Source: Candidatus Omnitrophota bacterium
GTDB lineage: Bacteria > Omnitrophota > Koll11 > JAHIPI01
Direction: 5' to 3'
Length of the DNA stretch: 5,396 bases
NCBI GenBank assembly: GCA_028718265.1
Contig: JAQUMG010000129.1
Coordinates: 1 to 5,396, forward strand
In this document: positions 1 to 5,396 of the stretch, in pieces
Layout: every line of letters begins with the position of its first letter
Position numbering within the stretch: the first letter of the stretch is position 1
The notes under the pieces: model-generated
What the model saw: only the letters and a program-made list of their open reading frames with translations
What the model was told of the DNA's origin: nothing
Database searches by the model: none
Program-made: the position numbers and the translations under genes

Positions 1-1
1 G

Positions 2-640
2 GAAGGCGATAGGGAATTTGCCATAGGACTCGTCGCTTTTAACGCGCTTTTCCAGGTCTTGTTCTACGCAGCCTACATCTATCTATTTATTACCGTCGGC
101 CTTAACTGGCTGGGACTTGCGAAGGGTCTGAATATCAGCATTTCGATGGTCGAAGCGGCTAAGACAGTTCTATTTTACTTAGGTATACCGTTTCTTGCCG
201 GAGTTCTTACGCGTGTTGGCCTTATTAGTATTAAAGGTAAAAAATGGTTTGAAGATGTTTTTATTCCAACGATCAGCCCGGTTACTTTGATCGCGCTTTT
301 GTTCACCATTATTATTATGTTTTCGCTTAAAGGGCGATACATCATACAGCTTCCTTTAGATGTGGTGAGAATTGCCGTACCGCTAATAATATATTTTTTT
401 ATTATGTGGTTTGTAACGTTCTTCATAGCCAGAAAGATGGGCATCGGCTATGGTCAGACTACGGCGACTTCTTTTACTGCGGCGAGCAATGATTTTGAGC
501 TGGCAATAGCGGTGGCGGTAGCGATTTTCGGTATCGGCTCAAACCAGGCGTTCGCGACGGTTATAGGGCCCCTGATAGAAGTTCCAGTCCTTATTATTCT
601 TGTAAACGTTGCATTGAAATTAAAAAAATCTTTCATATGA
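2..640 (+). CDS. ACR3-family arsenite efflux permease, C-terminal 212 residues (5' end outside window)
   Basis: ACR3 permeases are inner-membrane carriers of about ten helices that expel arsenite (sometimes antimonite), usually driven by the proton gradient. The open frame runs in from the left edge, so the TTG at 59 is only an internal codon. The first visible residues ([20 protein letters not shown]) are a classic ACR3 segment. Further hallmarks are [12 protein letters not shown] and [10 protein letters not shown] near the C-terminus, with Glu166 and Glu193 of the fragment. About six hydrophobic helices are visible, fitting the second half of a protein of roughly 350 residues. The conserved TM4 cysteine would lie upstream and cannot be checked. 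Its TGA overlaps the next gene's ATG. No other ars gene (arsR, arsC, arsM) is visible. Related families in the BART superfamily (bile acid symporters) are the alternative, but the motif match favours ACR3. Confidence 0.9.
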
Positions 641-1302
641 AAAAAATATTTACCAAAACGCTGCTGTTTTTGTCGTTCATTTTCTTCCTATCCACCCCGG
701 CGATGGCCCAGGACCAGGATGAGAACGCCCTCAATGAGCTTATTTCCAAAAATAAGAAAGATTATGTCGCGATAACAAAACTGGGTGTCCTCTATCAAGA
801 CCAGGGCCGTAAAGCAGAGGCGGGCCGTCATTTTAAAAAAGCGATAGAGATAGCCCCTGACTATCCGGATGCGCATCTTTATATCGGCCGGTTCTATTTT
901 CTTGAGAGAGATTTTGATAAGGCGGTTGAGGAATTAAAGACATACAAGAATATAATGAAAGCGTTGCCAGAGATGGATGAACAGACGAAGAAGATGTATA
1001 TAAATGACCTGTTTTACTTAAGCGAAGTATATTTTACGCTCAAGAGATATACGGAAGCCCGGGAAGAATTGGAAGAGATCCTGAAGTTAAACCCGAGCGA
1101 ACCGAGGGCCTACTATAATCTGGGCGTATATTATTATGTTTACGAACATTCCAGGTCTAAGGCATATAATAATTTTAAGAAGGCGATAGAGGTGGGCCCC
1201 TCTTCTGAAGCCGCAAAAAGCGCTGAATATGCAATTGAATTCATCAGGTCTAACCCCGATTCAAGATTTGCCCCGGACTTTTCCTTCATAGACCGAGAGT
1301 AA
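637..1302 (+). CDS. Exported TPR-repeat protein
   Basis: This is a 221-residue protein with a clear Sec signal peptide: MKK, a hydrophobic core at residues 8-20, then a signal peptidase I site after AMA (Ala24). The mature part is a helical TPR solenoid. Repeats lie at about 42-75 (A..LG.LY....G...EA...F.KAIEI.P), 76-105 ([23 protein letters not shown]), 122-155 ([26 protein letters not shown]) and 156-189 ([30 protein letters not shown]). A short non-repeat tail ends in [14 protein letters not shown] proteins are protein-binding scaffolds, and no enzymatic motif is present. The start ATG overlaps the ACR3 stop (ATGA) and has no recognisable Shine-Dalgarno, so translation is probably coupled to the transporter gene. 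There is no lipobox cysteine, so a soluble periplasmic protein is more likely than a lipoprotein. The partner is unknown. Confidence 0.85.
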
Positions 1303-1347
1303 AAAATAAAAAAGCTTGATTTTCTGACTTCCTATTTTTTCAACTCA

Positions 1348-1356
1348 TGCTATACT
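1348..1356 (+). promoter_or_regulatory. Candidate extended -10 promoter for the RlpA-like gene
   Basis: TGCTATACT is a near-perfect extended -10 element (TGn plus TATACT) in the 138-bp gap between the TPR gene and the RlpA-like gene. The positions 17 bp upstream (CTTCCT) make a poor -35. A better -35-like CTGACT at 1324-1329 is 21 bp away, which is too far. Extended -10 promoters can work without a -35. Transcription would start near 1363, leaving an untranslated leader of about 78 nt. Confidence 0.45.
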
Positions 1357-1429
1357 TTTATTGAAGGTTAGGTAATCTAAAAGGCAACAGATTTTTTTTG
1401 ATCAGTTAATAAAGAAGTTTAAAAAGTTC

Positions 1430-1435
1430 AGGAGG
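1430..1435 (+). promoter_or_regulatory. Strong Shine-Dalgarno that decides a GTG start
   Basis: AGGAGG lies 5 nt upstream of the GTG at 1441. This favours GTG over the in-frame ATG at 1450, which would be 14 nt away and would remove the two lysines that open the signal peptide. Confidence 0.85.
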
Positions 1436-1440
1436 CTACC

Positions 1441-1845
1441 GTGAAAAAAATGAACCTCTTGATAATAATCCTGGTTGGAGCAATGATGCTGGAAGCAGGC
1501 AGCTTGACCGCAGATGTGATCACGCCGATCGCAATGGCTAAACCTTATACAGTGGGGGTCGCAAGTTATTATTCTTACGAGTGTGCGGACCTGCCGATGG
1601 CGAATGGAGAACCGTTTGATCCGGAGAAAAGGACATGCGCAAGCTGGTTCTACAAATTCGGGACCATTTTGGCAGTTAAGAGCATAGATACCGGCCAGTC
1701 GACAGAGGTGGTAGTTACCGACAGAGGGCCGAACAAAAGGCTGGTAAAAGAAGGCAGGATAATAGATCTTTCCAAAAGGGCTTTTCAGGATATATGCAGA
1801 TTGGAGCAAGGCCTCACCCGCGTTACCGTAACGGTCAAAAAGTGA
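1441..1845 (+). CDS. Secreted RlpA-like double-psi beta-barrel protein (atypical)
   Basis: This 134-residue protein is a signal sequence plus one RlpA-type double-psi beta-barrel (DPBB) domain at about 36-132. RlpA proteins act on peptidoglycan; Pseudomonas RlpA is a lytic transglycosylase at septa. Family motifs in order are GVASYYS (39-45), MANGEPFDP (53-61), TCASWFYKFGT (65-75), VTDRGPNKR (92-100) and GRIIDLSKRAF (105-115). Glu57 and Asp60 align with the conserved ANGExFD acids, and Asp94 sits in the DRGP loop. The usual TAAHKTLPFGT segment has Ser68 where the family has His, so glycan cleavage is uncertain. Cleavage of the signal could follow SLTA (24) or AMA (33). There is no lipobox cysteine and no SPOR domain, unlike canonical RlpA lipoproteins. 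Cys48, Cys66 and Cys119 could include a disulfide. It is flanked by its own promoter and by the next operon's promoter, so it is probably monocistronic. Confidence 0.85.
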   Translation: MKKMNLLIIILVGAMMLEAGSLTADVITPIAMAKPYTVGVASYYSYECADLPMANGEPFDPEKRTCASWFYKFGTILAVKSIDTGQSTEVVVTDRGPNKRLVKEGRIIDLSKRAFQDICRLEQGLTRVTVTVKK

Positions 1846-1856
1846 AATTTTTTGTT

Positions 1857-1885
1857 TTGACTCCTTCCCGCAAATGGTGTAAAAT
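1857..1885 (+). promoter_or_regulatory. Sigma70-type promoter of the ParA/coiled-coil operon
   Basis: TTGACT (1857-1862), a 17-bp spacer, and TAAAAT (1880-1885) match the housekeeping consensus at 5/6 in each hexamer with ideal spacing. It starts 12 bp after the RlpA-like stop codon. Transcription would begin near 1892, giving a leader of about 77 nt. It marks the start of a new transcription unit running to the right edge of the window. Confidence 0.75.
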
Positions 1886-1915
1886 GCCCCTATTGGAAGA
1901 TGCAAAAGGTCCTTC

Positions 1916-1962
1916 TCCGCCTTCGGCGGATCAGGATCAAACCTACTTCGTAAGTTTGGAGG
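1916..1962 (+). promoter_or_regulatory. Structured 5' leader: two hairpins and the Shine-Dalgarno
   Basis: Hairpin 1 is a perfect 6-bp stem (TCCGCC at 1916-1921 with GGCGGA at 1925-1930) closing a TTC loop. Hairpin 2 pairs 1938-1946 with 1950-1958: five pairs, one C/A mismatch, then three pairs, again around a TTC loop (1947-1949). Its last base is the first G of the ribosome site GGAGG (1958-1962), which sits 6 nt before the ATG at 1969. As an alternative, TCTCC at 1914-1918 can pair with GGAGG. Neither hairpin is followed by a T-run, so these are not terminators. They may tune translation or belong to a dispersed repeat. Confidence 0.5.
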
Positions 1963-1968
1963 CTCAAT

Positions 1969-2328
1969 ATGCCAGAGGTCGGTCTTGTCAATATCGCCAC
2001 TTTTTTTGTCATAATCGGTGTAGGTCTTATATTTATCGCAGCGTGGATAATAAAATCTGAATCCAGAATAAATATCTGCAAAGAAGAGATCATCCGGCTC
2101 AGGAACCAGGCGGCGAGCATGGAGAGGGAAAGATCCGGCCTTCTGGAAAAGCTATCCTCCCAGGGAATCGTGCCCACCGAATTAGCGGATTCCGGGGATT
2201 CAGGCCGCGATCTGAAGGATGCGTTAAAAAAGAACGAATCTCTCGAAGCCGAGAACAAAAAGCTGAAGCGTGAATTGAACGAAGCCAAAAAATCTCTGGA
2301 AGAAGTCTATAAGGCGCTGAGCGCCTAA
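1969..2328 (+). CDS. Small single-pass membrane protein with cytoplasmic coiled coil
   Basis: This 119-residue protein has one hydrophobic segment at about 6-28 (rich in I, V, F, G). A charged amphipathic helix follows at about 31-63, then a short Ser/Gly/Asp linker (64-80, including DSGDSGRD), then a second Lys/Glu heptad helix at about 81-117. Positive residues just after the membrane segment (Lys29, Arg33, Lys38) predict the coiled coil on the cytoplasmic side with only a few residues outside. I recognise no named family. It is the first gene of the operon, with a good GGAGG site, and ends 13 bp before the long coiled-coil gene. Its terminal helix (NESLEAENKKLKRELNEAKK) resembles the coil of the next protein, so the two could co-assemble, with this one as membrane anchor. 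No enzymatic motif is visible. Confidence 0.8.
   Translation: MPEVGLVNIATFFVIIGVGLIFIAAWIIKSESRINICKEEIIRLRNQAASMERERSGLLEKLSSQGIVPTELADSGDSGRDLKDALKKNESLEAENKKLKRELNEAKKSLEEVYKALSA
2312..2326 (+). other. Perfect inverted repeat at the gene junction
   Basis: AGGCGCT-G-AGCGCCT is a 7-bp perfect inverted repeat (a 6-bp stem with TGA loop as RNA). It covers the last codons of the membrane coil gene, with its last base being the first base of the TAA stop (2326-2328). It is followed directly by AAGG (2327-2330), the likely ribosome site of the next gene. No T-run follows, so it is not a terminator. It may affect coupling between the two genes or be incidental to the codons. Confidence 0.4.
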
Positions 2329-2341
2329 GGTAAAACCCCAG

Positions 2342-4207
2342 ATGAGTAAAACCCTCAAATTATTAAAGAAAGCCTCCGAAAAAAAAGAATCGTCCGACTT
2401 CGGCGATATGGAAGTAAGCGACATAAGAAAAAAGATAATGGAGAAGATCCAGGAACAGCAGTCTTCTTCATCCGGAAACAAAAAAACGTTTGATCTCACG
2501 GCGTTATCGAAAAAATTGGGCCTCGATGAATCTGCCGGAACCCCATCCGATATTGTAACAGAAGAACCGCCCGTTGCCTCAATACCGATCCGTGCCGACG
2601 AAGGTGTTATAAACGACCTCAAAAAAAGCCTCGAAGATTACCGCAAGAAGCTATCTGATATCCAGCTCGAGAACGAACAATTGAAGAGAGAGAAGGAAGA
2701 AGCCCTTAAAGAGAGAGAAGGTTTGCTGAAAAGCAGCTCTTCCGAAATCAGCCTGAAAAGATCTCTGGATGAAGCAAGGCAGAAAGAATCTGCCCTCGAG
2801 TCGGAGAATAAGAAGCTGGCGAAACTGCATGACGAAACAGCCAGACAAAATGACAGCCTCTGTGCCCAGCTGGAGGAGAAGGATAAAGTAATATCAGAAT
2901 TACGGTCGAAGCTTACCGAAGAACCGGAACAACTGAAGAAAGAGAATGAGAAGGCGGCGGCTAACATAGAGGCGCTCAGATCTAAATTATATGTGGCTAC
3001 CAAAGAGACAAAAGAGCAATCGGGCCGTATAAATCAGTTCGAAGAGATGATGAAGACGAGAGACAAAAAACTTGCCGAGAATGACAGAGCGATAAAAGAG
3101 GTTGAGAATAAAAAAGAAGAGTTATCGGGAAAACTTGATACGGCGGAAAAAAACCTTAAGGACCTCGAGGATAAGATGTCGCAGCTTAGCGAAGAGATCG
3201 AGGCAAAAGAGAAAAAGGCCGCCGAGAACGAAAAAATTCATATTAAGAATATAGAGATGGCGAAGAGAGAACTCGTCCTTCAGCTTCAGGCATCCGAAAG
3301 GGAGAAGAGATCGCTGGAGGGGAAAGTTACCCAGCTTAATATAGAGTTAGAAGCGAAGAATAAGAGGATCGAAGAGACCGAAAATTCATACAAAGAGCTT
3401 GAGGGTACTGTACGGGATAGCGTGCTTAAACTCGAGACATCCGAAAGCCGTGCTAAAGACCTCGACGAAAAACTTATACAGCTCAACGAAGAGATAGAGA
3501 AGTACGGAAGAAAACTTTCAGCCAGCGATAAAGAGCTTAAAGATATCAGTGCCGAAAGAAAAGAGCTGGAAGAAAAACTGAAGTTGTCCGAAAAGAACGC
3601 AGAAAAACTGGATGACGAGTTGTCAAAATTAAAGGCAAATCTTGAGTCAAGAGACAAGAAGCTTGCGGAGAGCGACAAACTTTATAAAGAATCGGAACTT
3701 GCCAGGAAAGAGTTGACTCTGGAGCTTAAAGCGGCTGAGAGGGAAAGAAAGGCGCTTGAAGGAAAGATCGCTCAATTCAATATCGAATTGGAAGCGAAGG
3801 ATAAGAGGCTCGAGGAGAGCGAGAGGTCATACAAAGAACTCGACGGCATGGTGAAAGACGCAGGCCTGAAACTCGAAGAATCCGAAGGCCGTCTGAGAGA
3901 TTTCGAAGAACAGATATCACAGCTTAATAAAAAGCTCGAAGAGGCCGAAAAGAAACGCCAGGATGACGCGGCCGAGGCCCAGGGAAAGATAGGAAAGCTG
4001 GCCCAGGAAATGGATGAATTAAGAAATATAATCAAGGGAAAAGAAGAGGCTGAAAAAGGCCTCACAGAGGATATAGCCCGCCTTGAATCCGAGATCATAG
4101 AGCGCGACAAAAAAATCCAGACGGACATCAGATACTGCGAAGGTATCGTTAAGGAAGTTAACGATTTAAGGCAGAAAATGAAGGCCCTGCGCCTTAAGAT
4201 CAGGTGA
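2342..4207 (+). CDS. Long cytoplasmic coiled-coil protein with six 49-residue repeats
   Basis: This 621-residue protein has no signal peptide or membrane segment and is dominated by Lys, Glu, Leu, Ser and Asp. Residues 1-16 are basic (MSKTLKLLKKASEKKE). Residues 17-85 look poorly ordered, with one small amphipathic stretch (DLTALSKKLGLDE, 51-63). From about 86 to the end it is nearly continuous heptad coiled coil. Residues 240-534 are six tandem units of 49 residues (the second has 50), each opening with a KDKKLAESDKxYKE-like block. There are no Walker motifs, so it is not an SMC or Rad50 ATPase despite the superficial likeness. Such proteins serve as rods, spacers or scaffolds. The ATG follows AAGG with 11-nt spacing, and the stop is 1 nt before the ParA ATG, so synthesis of the two is probably coupled. 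I infer a scaffold or adaptor for the ParA ATPase. I do not recognise a family. Confidence 0.85.
   Translation: MSKTLKLLKKASEKKESSDFGDMEVSDIRKKIMEKIQEQQSSSSGNKKTFDLTALSKKLGLDESAGTPSDIVTEEPPVASIPIRADEGVINDLKKSLEDYRKKLSDIQLENEQLKREKEEALKEREGLLKSSSSEISLKRSLDEARQKESALESENKKLAKLHDETARQNDSLCAQLEEKDKVISELRSKLTEEPEQLKKENEKAAANIEALRSKLYVATKETKEQSGRINQFEEMMKTRDKKLAENDRAIKEVENKKEELSGKLDTAEKNLKDLEDKMSQLSEEIEAKEKKAAENEKIHIKNIEMAKRELVLQLQASEREKRSLEGKVTQLNIELEAKNKRIEETENSYKELEGTVRDSVLKLETSESRAKDLDEKLIQLNEEIEKYGRKLSASDKELKDISAERKELEEKLKLSEKNAEKLDDELSKLKANLESRDKKLAESDKLYKESELARKELTLELKAAERERKALEGKIAQFNIELEAKDKRLEESERSYKELDGMVKDAGLKLEESEGRLRDFEEQISQLNKKLEEAEKKRQDDAAEAQGKIGKLAQEMDELRNIIKGKEEAEKGLTEDIARLESEIIERDKKIQTDIRYCEGIVKEVNDLRQKMKALRLKIR
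3059..3943 (+). repeat. Six in-frame tandem repeats of 147 bp (one of 150)
   Basis: Units start at 3059, 3206, 3356, 3503, 3650 and 3797, encoding residues 240-288, 289-338, 339-387, 388-436, 437-485 and 486-534. Each begins with a block like RDKKLAENDR, KEKKAAENEK, KNKRIEETEN, YGRKLSASDK, RDKKLAESDK or KDKRLEESER. Most end near a QLNxELEA-like block. Units 2 and 5, and units 3 and 6, are the most alike (shared LEGK, NIELEAK, SYKEL), which points to a later duplication of a three-unit block. The half-unit before unit 1 (residues 226-239, QSGRINQFEE...) matches the end of a unit, so a worn seventh copy probably precedes the array. Confidence 0.85.
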
Positions 4208-4208
4208 T

Positions 4209-5024
4209 ATGAAAACGGCAAGAAAACAGCTGTTTCTCAACTATAAAGGCGGAACGGGCAAGACGAGCATCTCGAGCGCTTACGGATATTGTCTCGCGAA
4301 GGCCGGCAAAAAAGTGCTCATGGTCGACCTGGACGCACAGGCCCATCTGACGACATGCTTCGATCAGGAGCTCATTTCTCACGACAAAAGCCTATATAGC
4401 GTGATTTTAAATGACGGAAATGTTAAAGATGTAATAAGTAACACAAGCCTGCCGAACCTGAAATTGATACCATCGTCCATCTCCCTGTCGGCGCTGGAAC
4501 TTCCTCTCTTCGGGATGTATCTGAGGGAATACAGGCTTCGCCGGATCCTCAAAGAGGTGGAAAAAGATTTTGACTATATAATCATAGATTCCGCACCGGC
4601 GATCGGATTGTTGAGCCTCAACGCGATACTTGCCTCGGACGAAGTTCTTATACCGCTTCTGGCCGACTTCCTTTCGTTCCACGGCCTCAAGATCCTTCTG
4701 GAAACACTTTCCTCGATAGAAAAAGATTTTAGTTTTTATCTGGACAGGATCCATGTCTTTTTGAACAGGTATAATCCGGACTACCCCATATGCATGGAGT
4801 GCCGCGAAGCGGTAAATAAATTTTATCCGGAATATTCGCTTAAGACAGTTATCAGTGAGTCCAGGGAGATAATAGACGCTTCGAGTATGGGAAAATCTGT
4901 TTTTGAGCTTTATCCCGGATCGAAAATAACAGAAGATATAAAAAATCTGGTTGACGAAGTCAATAATCCGATAATAAAACCCGAGGGAAAGGAACTGGGC
5001 AATGAAGAAAAAATTCGAGTCTAA
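4209..5024 (+). CDS. ParA/MinD-family partitioning ATPase, orphan
   Basis: This 271-residue ATPase is of the ParA class, whose ATP-bound dimers bind DNA or membrane and move or position plasmids, chromosomes or protein clusters. The deviant Walker A is KGGTGKT (13-19), with signature Lys13 and catalytic-loop Lys18. Walker A' is VDLDAQAHLT (39-48, Asp40 and Asp42; the usual form is DLDPQGNAT). Walker B is DYIIIDSAP (122-130, Asp127). Later family blocks are IPLLADFLSFHGL (148-160) and SESREIIDASSMGKSVFE (216-233). The domain begins at the N-terminus, so there is no helix-turn-helix extension as in type Ia ParA. There is no obvious MinD-like C-terminal amphipathic helix. An extra CMEC (Cys195, Cys198) is unusual. 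The start lies 1 nt after the coiled-coil stop, and the end overlaps the next gene by 23 nt. No parB follows. BY-kinase is less likely because of the KGGTGKT loop. Confidence 0.9.
   Translation: MKTARKQLFLNYKGGTGKTSISSAYGYCLAKAGKKVLMVDLDAQAHLTTCFDQELISHDKSLYSVILNDGNVKDVISNTSLPNLKLIPSSISLSALELPLFGMYLREYRLRRILKEVEKDFDYIIIDSAPAIGLLSLNAILASDEVLIPLLADFLSFHGLKILLETLSSIEKDFSFYLDRIHVFLNRYNPDYPICMECREAVNKFYPEYSLKTVISESREIIDASSMGKSVFELYPGSKITEDIKNLVDEVNNPIIKPEGKELGNEEKIRV
4988..5004 (+). promoter_or_regulatory. Internal ribosome site and start inside the ParA gene
   Basis: AAAGGA (4988-4993) lies 8 nt before the ATG at 5002, inside the end of the ParA frame. It supports a real overlapping start and translational coupling with the ATPase. 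Confidence 0.65.
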
Positions 5025-5328
5025 TGTCGCGGCCGAAATACCGAAGACGAAACTTCACGAACCTGAATTACCGTGGAAGATAACGACGGATGACCTTGCC
5101 GAGGTTGCATCTAAGTCAAGCAGTTATAAATCGGCAGTCACGGGGACGCCGCCGTTTAAAACAAGGGCAATATTCCTGATACTCCTTGTTGCGGCCCTGT
5201 TTTTATTTACATCCATCGTGGTTCTGAATGCCGTAGTGGAGAACGAAAAAGTGCGCCAGGACATGCTGAAGAGAGAGACAGAGCTCGTTCTGATCAAAAC
5301 CGATCTCCAGAAATTGGAGAGCGATTAA
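5002..5328 (+). CDS. Single-pass membrane protein with N-terminal cytoplasmic tail and coiled coil (interrupted)
   Basis: This 108-residue frame has a basic start (MKKKFESN), a proline-containing tail to about residue 54 (including LHEPELPWKITTDDLAE), one hydrophobic helix at about 55-79, then a Lys/Glu heptad helix to residue 108. Lys53 and Arg55 before the helix predict a cytoplasmic tail and an outward-facing coil, the reverse of the 119-residue protein. The frame overlaps the ParA gene by 23 nt and has its own ribosome site, so it belongs to the operon. A TAA at 5326-5328 ends it, but the same frame resumes for 15 more coiled-coil-like codons, so the real protein is probably longer and the stop is suspect. 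The short cytoplasmic tail could be a ParA contact. No known family is recognised. Confidence 0.7.
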   Translation: MKKKFESNVAAEIPKTKLHEPELPWKITTDDLAEVASKSSSYKSAVTGTPPFKTRAIFLILLVAALFLFTSIVVLNAVVENEKVRQDMLKRETELVLIKTDLQKLESD

Positions 5329-5374
5329 GAGGCGCTGACCAAAAACTCCGCTTCTCTCGAGAAGAAGGTAAGCG
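5329..5374 (+). other. In-frame coiled-coil continuation after the TAA stop
   Basis: Reading on in the frame of the membrane coil gene gives EALTKNSASLEKKVS and then a Glu codon, running into the adapter-like tail. Leu, Leu, Val and Ile fall where the heptad of the preceding helix predicts them (the Ile overlaps the adapter-like bases). The stretch therefore looks like coding sequence of the same gene, cut from it by one stop codon. It may be a true nonsense mutation or an assembly error near the contig end. Confidence 0.55.
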
Positions 5375-5396
5375 AGATAGGAAGAGCGTCGTGTAG
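5375..5396. other. Illumina adapter remnant at the contig end
   Basis: The last 22 bases match the start of the Illumina TruSeq universal adapter read-through sequence (AGATCGGAAGAGCGTCGTGTAG) at 21 of 22 positions; the only difference is A at 5379 instead of C. This is a sequencing artefact, not genome. The true insert ends at about 5374-5378, and nothing after that should be translated. Confidence 0.92.

Follow-up and report, generated by a model that had tools for sequence, protein, structure and literature searches.

A PomZ-like ATPase in a conserved Candidatus Omnitrophota gene cluster, and a candidate Pom-type positioning system with PomX divided between two predicted membrane proteins

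A PomZ-like ATPase in a four-gene cluster

A stretch of 5,396 nucleotides from a Candidatus Omnitrophota bacterium (contig JAQUMG010000129.1, positions 1 to 5,396 of the forward strand; the whole stretch is called the window) was analysed for a cluster of four tightly packed genes on its + strand. They encode a short coiled coil (coil1), a long coiled coil (coil2), a ParA-type ATPase and a further coil (coil3), with the lengths given in Table 1, 13 nucleotides between coil1 and coil2, 1 nucleotide between coil2 and ParA, and an overlap of 23 nucleotides between ParA and coil3, as a preliminary description of this DNA had laid out. The ATPase is kin to PomZ, the two end motifs of PomX lie on two different genes, each of these encodes a strong hydrophobic segment, and the linkage of the genes is conserved. 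We consider it probable that the cluster encodes a ParA positioning system of the Pom type, one that would place an envelope scaffold and has its PomX divided between two inner-membrane proteins, coil1 and coil3. The preliminary description had proposed a ParA-based positioning system with membrane anchors, a reading that fits. It had also called the ATPase an orphan, a label that does not suit a PomZ-like protein followed by a gene with an activator-like peptide, and it missed the PomZ-like nature of the ATPase as well as the PomX ends on the two membrane coils.

Table 1. Positions of the cluster genes, their motifs and neighbouring features in the window.
Feature	Position	Strand	Basis and remarks
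coil1, 119 residues	1969..2328	+	open reading frame; N-terminal hydrophobic segment at residues 10-28; coil predicted cytoplasmic
PomX C-terminal motif, 14 residues, at the end of coil1	2278..2319	+	profile scan and reciprocal scan
coil2, coiled coil of 621 residues, variable in length	2342..4207	+	open reading frame; N- and C-terminal stretches conserved
PomZ-like ParA ATPase, 271 residues	4209..5024	+	identity, pocket residues, tree
coil3, interrupted after 108 codons	5002..5328	+	hydrophobic segment at residues 57-75; coil predicted periplasmic
PomX NPEP-like peptide, first 18 residues of coil3	5002..5055	+	motif and profile
in-frame TAA interrupting coil3	5326..5328	+	68 bases before the window end, about 50 before the adapter match
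promoter-like site TTGACT-17-TAAAAT	1857..1885	+	10 of 12 consensus positions matched; conservation in L001
probable sequencing-adapter remnant at the contig end	5375..5396	.	21 of 22 bases match a sequencing adapter
RlpA-like double-psi barrel protein, neighbour	1441..1845	+	cluster membership uncertain

The grouping of the window ATPase with PomZ rather than with ordinary ParA proteins is well supported by sequence comparison. The Walker A motif KGGTGKT, already noted as intact in the preliminary description, does not vary among the 27 aligned rows, of which the window is one. The window ParA shares 43% identity with PomZ of Myxococcus xanthus and 40–46% with the 33 myxobacterial proteins; its identity to ordinary ParAs from both groups is 27–34% for 25 of 27, and the alignments of the remaining two span just 142 and 47 residues. 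In a tree of 69 rows the PomZ-like proteins separated from the rest with a support of 100/100, and with the five extra rows that had been dropped from it for long branches or odd make-up (three MyxoP, one archaeal and one MyxoZ) the support was 93/90. The Omnitrophota proteins are sister to the myxobacterial ones or nested in them (support 62/37 and 92/58), the tree permitting both, and as few phyla supplied the background ParAs, there may be a third family that is closer to one group or the other. Phage and plasmid ParAs were rejected as nearest kin, being more distant (at most 34.8% and 36.5% among the matches listed).

A genome scan with the Omnitrophota ParA, which relied on two peptides conserved in the Omnitrophota family and would miss phyla in which these peptides have drifted, returned 75 loci, nine of them from Omnitrophota and nearly all others titled Myxococcota, its genera or Deltaproteobacteria. 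Locus L038 is that of M. xanthus: its protein of 319 residues matches PomZ at 23 of 23 residues checked (22 taken from PMC13170346 and D90 from PMC7993993), and the next gene encodes 404 residues, the published length of PomX (PMC7993993). Myxobacterial Pom genes were delimited by reading outward from ParA. Locus L040 (BNCN01000008.1), titled Comamonas sp. KCTC 72670, carries a PomZ and a PomX of the myxobacterial type, and its title may be wrong. In L005, L007, L008 and L120 the ParA has an N-terminal extension, absent from the window ParA, that looks amphipathic by eye and may be a membrane tether.

Thirteen residues modelled in contact with the PomX peptide are conserved in PomZ and not in ParA or MinD (PMC13170346). 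Five of them, F202, F205, A249, Y254 and S274, show no variation across all 11 Omnitrophota and all 33 myxobacterial proteins. In the 27 ordinary ParAs, F202, F205 and Y254 never occur, A249 does so once and S274 nine times. In the 11 Omnitrophota rows V229 is replaced by I or M, L242 by I or V and, in ten rows, F257 by Y; E248 is retained in ten, E219 in seven and E256 in five. Conservation is lower in the pocket for the PomY helix: L182 and L185 are found in 11/11 rows and D221 in 10/11, A147 is P in 10/11 and F180 is I in 11/11. A stretch resembling the C-terminal end of PomX was seen inside PomZ near the peptide pocket (L039 10580; L065 10583) and may be due to chance.

PomX-like ends on coil3 and coil1

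The gene after ParA begins with a version of the PomZ-activating PomX peptide, and its product may activate the ATPase. The pattern M[KRS][KRTG]xF[ED]xN[VLI] matched 67 of 39,265 open reading frame starts, all 67 in the gene after ParA and one in each of 67 of the 73 loci scanned; it was drawn up after inspection of both groups and is thus evidence on location only. The six loci without it are L008, L020, L032 and L065, which have variants or a different start, L061, which ends at ParA, and L036, where no peptide of this type was found in the stretch inspected. A profile of 23 distinct myxobacterial PomX N-termini placed coil3 at ranks 1–10 of 5,525 Omnitrophota open reading frame starts, with scores from 9.1 to −1.8; the next start scored −4.7 and the rest −39.6 on average (standard deviation 8.0). 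L008 is absent from these ranks since its open reading frame starts two residues upstream. This profile and that of the PomX C-terminus were built from myxobacterial sequences alone, the resemblance having already been spotted by eye, and some Omnitrophota DNA was represented twice in the data and counted twice in both scans and in the comparison of core charges given below. Of 120 coil3 relatives listed, 113 were scored, seven having been dropped for lack of N at position 8 (positions 5, F, and 8, N, belonged to the selection); P14 is retained and position 17 is basic in all 113. After the activator peptide a second motif, EPxLPWK, is present in 11 of 11 aligned rows, and no counterpart of it was noticed in PomX.

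In M. xanthus, PomZ is activated by the N-terminal domain of PomX, whose C-terminal domain self-assembles and has PomY, not PomZ, as its binding partner (PMC7993993); with one end of PomX on coil3 and the other on coil1, these two functions seem to be assigned to two genes. Thirty myxobacterial PomX proteins have in common a C-terminal motif like EARKALEAVHRAL, to which L065 conforms only loosely, and no role of its own for this motif is described in the available excerpts of the Pom papers PMC7993993 and PMC13170346. Coil1 ends in EAKKSLEEVYKAL, in which SLEEVYKA is identical in 8/8 aligned rows. With a profile of 18 distinct myxobacterial 14-mers, the nine complete coil1 C-termini took ranks 1–9 among 194,672 Omnitrophota translation windows (scores 19.5–24.6, next 12.2, best of 5,775 coil2 windows 8.3), and these matches lie one to three residues from the stop. 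In the reverse direction, a coil1 profile applied to 26 myxobacterial loci gave its 18 highest scores, out of 665,488 windows, to PomX C-termini.

The topology of both coils was predicted from the charges flanking their hydrophobic segments. In the window the strongest segment of coil1 has no lysine or arginine in the preceding 15 residues versus four after it, and across all eight loci computed there are 0–1 before versus 3–6 after, so that by positive-inside reasoning the protein, once inserted into the membrane, would clearly have its coil inside (8/8 loci). For coil3, the window has three basic residues before and three after the segment; among 11 loci, those before outnumber those after in six, equal them in four and are fewer in one. 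Its peptide is therefore placed inside mainly because the ATPase would be its partner on the cytosolic side, the charge argument being weak. The opposite topologies proposed in the preliminary description are thus clear as regards coil1 and only suggested as regards coil3 (6/11).

Coil2 ranges from 434 to 807 residues across ten loci, the window included, which disfavours the fixed ruler that the long coil had been proposed to be. Coil2 was also considered as PomY, an assignment that tblastn and peptide scans left unsupported; no clear peptide resembling alpha5 of PomY was found among 110,680 windows of the cluster loci, the best (14.7) lying on the reverse strand of L003.

Conservation and surroundings of the cluster

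The closest contig compared, L001, belongs to a Candidatus Omnitrophota metagenome-assembled genome and is 91% identical. The gene order, which the preliminary description had suggested seeking in relatives, recurs within this phylum: coil1, coil2, ParA, coil3 and a tetratricopeptide repeat (TPR) protein follow one another in the nine Omnitrophota loci L001–L009 and in L120, as far as the contigs extend. Among the best 120 ParA matches, a minority of which carry an organism name, every name given is Omnitrophica or Omnitrophota. Of the 27 genomes of the order, 10 have a ParA of the window type (E ≤ 1e-60), as do 6 of a sample of 285 from the whole phylum. This ParA adjoins coil3 in 10/10 ParA-positive genomes of the order, a linkage above chance. 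The coil3 profile matched 10/10 of these PomZ-positive genomes versus one weak partial match among the 16 others of the order, and the coil1 profile likewise matched 10/10, in two of them as fragments. One genome in which no PomZ-like ParA was detected has a coil1 copy at the edge of a contig (G294:C39:52-363), and the rest of its locus is possibly unassembled.

The other + strand genes of the window, ahead of the cluster, encode an SBF-family transporter fragment, a TPR protein and the RlpA-like protein; a motif scan placed the last of these on one side or the other of the cluster in four of the 11 loci (window, L001, L002 and L120). A single strong promoter had been claimed for the cluster. 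The hexamers of the promoter-like site are largely kept in L001, which retains TTGAC and TAAAAT, but the site is weak when taken alone, as the window contains 11 such sites versus 6.2 (standard deviation 2.8) in shuffles. The last gene is incomplete: it is cut by an in-frame TAA where L001 has a sense codon, and ten relatives carry intact copies of 150–186 residues. The stop may be a sequence error or a genuine mutation. The final 22 bases match a sequencing adapter at 21 positions, which makes the contig end unreliable.

Alternative readings and meaning of the locus

Several points weigh against a Pom-type system with a divided PomX. In the peptide pocket, Q271 is retained in 0/11 and E275 in 1/11 Omnitrophota rows. 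Position 13 of coil3, which corresponds to K13 of PomX, an essential residue in M. xanthus (PMC7993993), holds I, M or L in 113/113 relatives scored, position 15 is basic in 81/113, and the charges place the N-terminus of coil3 inside only weakly. Eight of the 26 PomX C-termini fall outside the top 18 of the reverse profile, whose 19th match lies in PomZ (five of the eight are among the 34 matches listed; L018, L063 and L065 are not). PomX as a whole could not be aligned, the best tblastn match (E 0.018) lying within the long coil, and PomY was not found at the 11 cluster loci, the only place searched (best tblastn E 1.3). The ParA is present in only 10/27 genomes of the order. Both the peptide and the motif are short, which leaves some room for convergence on the same ATPase. 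At the position of the DNA-binding Lys268 of PomZ, 11/11 Omnitrophota rows and 110/111 relatives scored have E or D (120 were listed, nine of which were unmatched by the pattern and dropped), and 33/33 myxobacterial PomZ have K or R; the known nucleoid tether may thus be lost. As ordinary Omnitrophota ParAs are basic there in only 8/17 cases, the acidic residue makes nucleoid binding doubtful and does not exclude it. The mean net charge of the core, −4.0 in the Omnitrophota PomZ-like proteins versus −8.8 in myxobacterial PomZ, is uninformative on DNA binding, and no argument is made from overall charge.

As to what such a system would place, the putative cargo could be an envelope machine, made up of the TPR protein and perhaps also the products of the next genes, an outer-membrane factor, a membrane-fusion protein and an RND pump. 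This is a distinct possibility, if a rather unlikely one. The TPR gene comes directly after coil3, with gaps of −35 to 40 nucleotides in the nine loci measured, and 3' of the cluster in L002 (13975–20751) there are genes for a ROK/helix-turn-helix regulator, a small protein that has conserved cysteines but no Pfam match, an outer-membrane efflux protein (OEP), an HlyD-type fusion protein and an AcrB-type pump, a regulator and efflux set that looks alike by eye in other long loci. The regulator and pump genes lie further off, however, and neighbourhood is not interaction.

It is possible, yet doubtful, that a Pom cluster at the membrane labels the site of division directly and recruits wall or envelope enzymes independently of FtsZ. 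Division placement is the known role of PomXYZ, which locates mid-cell in myxobacteria, the RlpA-like motif occurs near the cluster in the four loci named above, and FtsZ was not found: the FtsZ/tubulin domain PF00091 was detected in 0/26 genomes of the order and 0/145 of the phylum, and the FtsZ C-terminal domain PF12327 in 0/26 of the order, in a sample of draft genomes that excludes the window's own and in which a very divergent FtsZ could be missed. The search was positive in 13 of 14 known genomes used as controls, and MreB was found in 26/26 genomes of the order, so that these genomes are searchable; MinC was found in 0/26. Against division placement stand the restriction of the ParA to a part of the order and the disagreement of the literature on FtsZ. 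A 2016 survey (PMC5147048) reported it from the Omnitrophica-labelled genome OLB16 but from neither of two others. A 2017 review counts Omnitrophica among exceptions possessing FtsZ (PMC5945725), and a 2025 paper groups Omnitrophota with phyla retaining most division genes (PMC12283558). The word FtsZ is absent from the available part of the main text of the 2023 genome study of the phylum (PMC10066038). The 0/145 result is at odds with parts of this literature and merits separate study.

Convergence, in which a ParA system would have an activator peptide and a coil end that are only look-alikes of those of PomX, is favoured by the shortness of the motifs and by the failure of most of PomX to align, but it would have to produce two separate motifs at the matching protein ends, in one operon and beside a PomZ-like ATPase, and we regard it as very improbable. 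An ordinary ParA of chromosome partition, as the ParA fold family and the label 'chromosome partitioning protein' of several relatives might suggest, has next to no probability and is rejected on the tree, the pocket residues and a separate parA-parB pair: genomes G001–G009 carry additional ParA-like proteins, one of which has ParB no more than about 1 kb away in 8/9, and no located ParB lies within 50 kb of the window-type ParA where both share a contig. A parB gene beside this ParA, which would have spoken against a positioning system, was thus not seen. Nor was the other sign that would have done so, a lack of conserved linkage between the ParA and the coil genes.

Among known systems, chromosomal and plasmid ParABS share with this locus a ParA-family ATPase with KGGxGKT and differ by the ParB that the locus lacks. 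In the MinD/MinE system, as may be conceived here, activation takes place at the inner membrane; the differences are the lack of MinC in the genomes searched and of a MinD-type C-terminal membrane helix, by eye, in the window ParA, and our trees contained no MinD rows. In McdA/McdB and PpfA/TlpT a ParA places protein cargo; the window ParA matches a solved McdA more weakly, the comparison being limited to that match. The closest likeness is to PomXYZ of M. xanthus, in the PomZ-like ATPase, the next gene with an NPEP-like start, the C-terminal motif of PomX and a coiled-coil scaffold. In Omnitrophota, the PomX ends lie instead on two proteins with hydrophobic segments, an extra long coil is present, the DNA-binding lysine is replaced by an acidic residue, no FtsZ was found in the sampled genomes and no PomY at the locus. 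The locus falls outside PomXYZ as defined, since neither a single PomX without an anchor nor the DNA-binding lysine nor, in the sampled genomes, FtsZ was found. PomXYZ has been described in myxobacteria, in Cystobacterineae (PMC7993993) and as conserved in myxobacteria (PMC13170346). The open-licence literature searched yielded neither a paper joining PomZ with a word starting Omnitroph nor a report of this gene composition; the earlier statement that no such system is described stands to that extent, although its core is Pom.

A Pom-type system of this kind could work as follows. The ATP-bound dimer of the PomZ-like ATPase would form on a surface, either membrane or nucleoid. At the inner membrane face, the N-terminal peptide of coil3 would meet this dimer and trigger ATP hydrolysis and release. 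Coil1 would carry the scaffold end of PomX on a membrane-tethered coil and, together with the long coil2, form a membrane-attached cluster, the position of which, and so its movement and localisation, would be set by the ATPase cycle. The periplasmic coil of coil3, perhaps with the TPR protein, might relay this position to the cell envelope. More tentatively still, and with greater doubt than belief, one may picture a membrane Pom system without FtsZ, in which PomX is split into opposite-facing halves and the ATPase, off the nucleoid, places division or envelope assembly.

If a split, membrane-tethered PomX in another phylum is real, it would show that the irreducible pieces of PomX are the activator peptide and the C-terminal motif, and it would separate activation of the ATPase from nucleoid binding and from FtsZ. 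For a phylum in which no FtsZ was found, the locus offers a specific candidate for spatial control.

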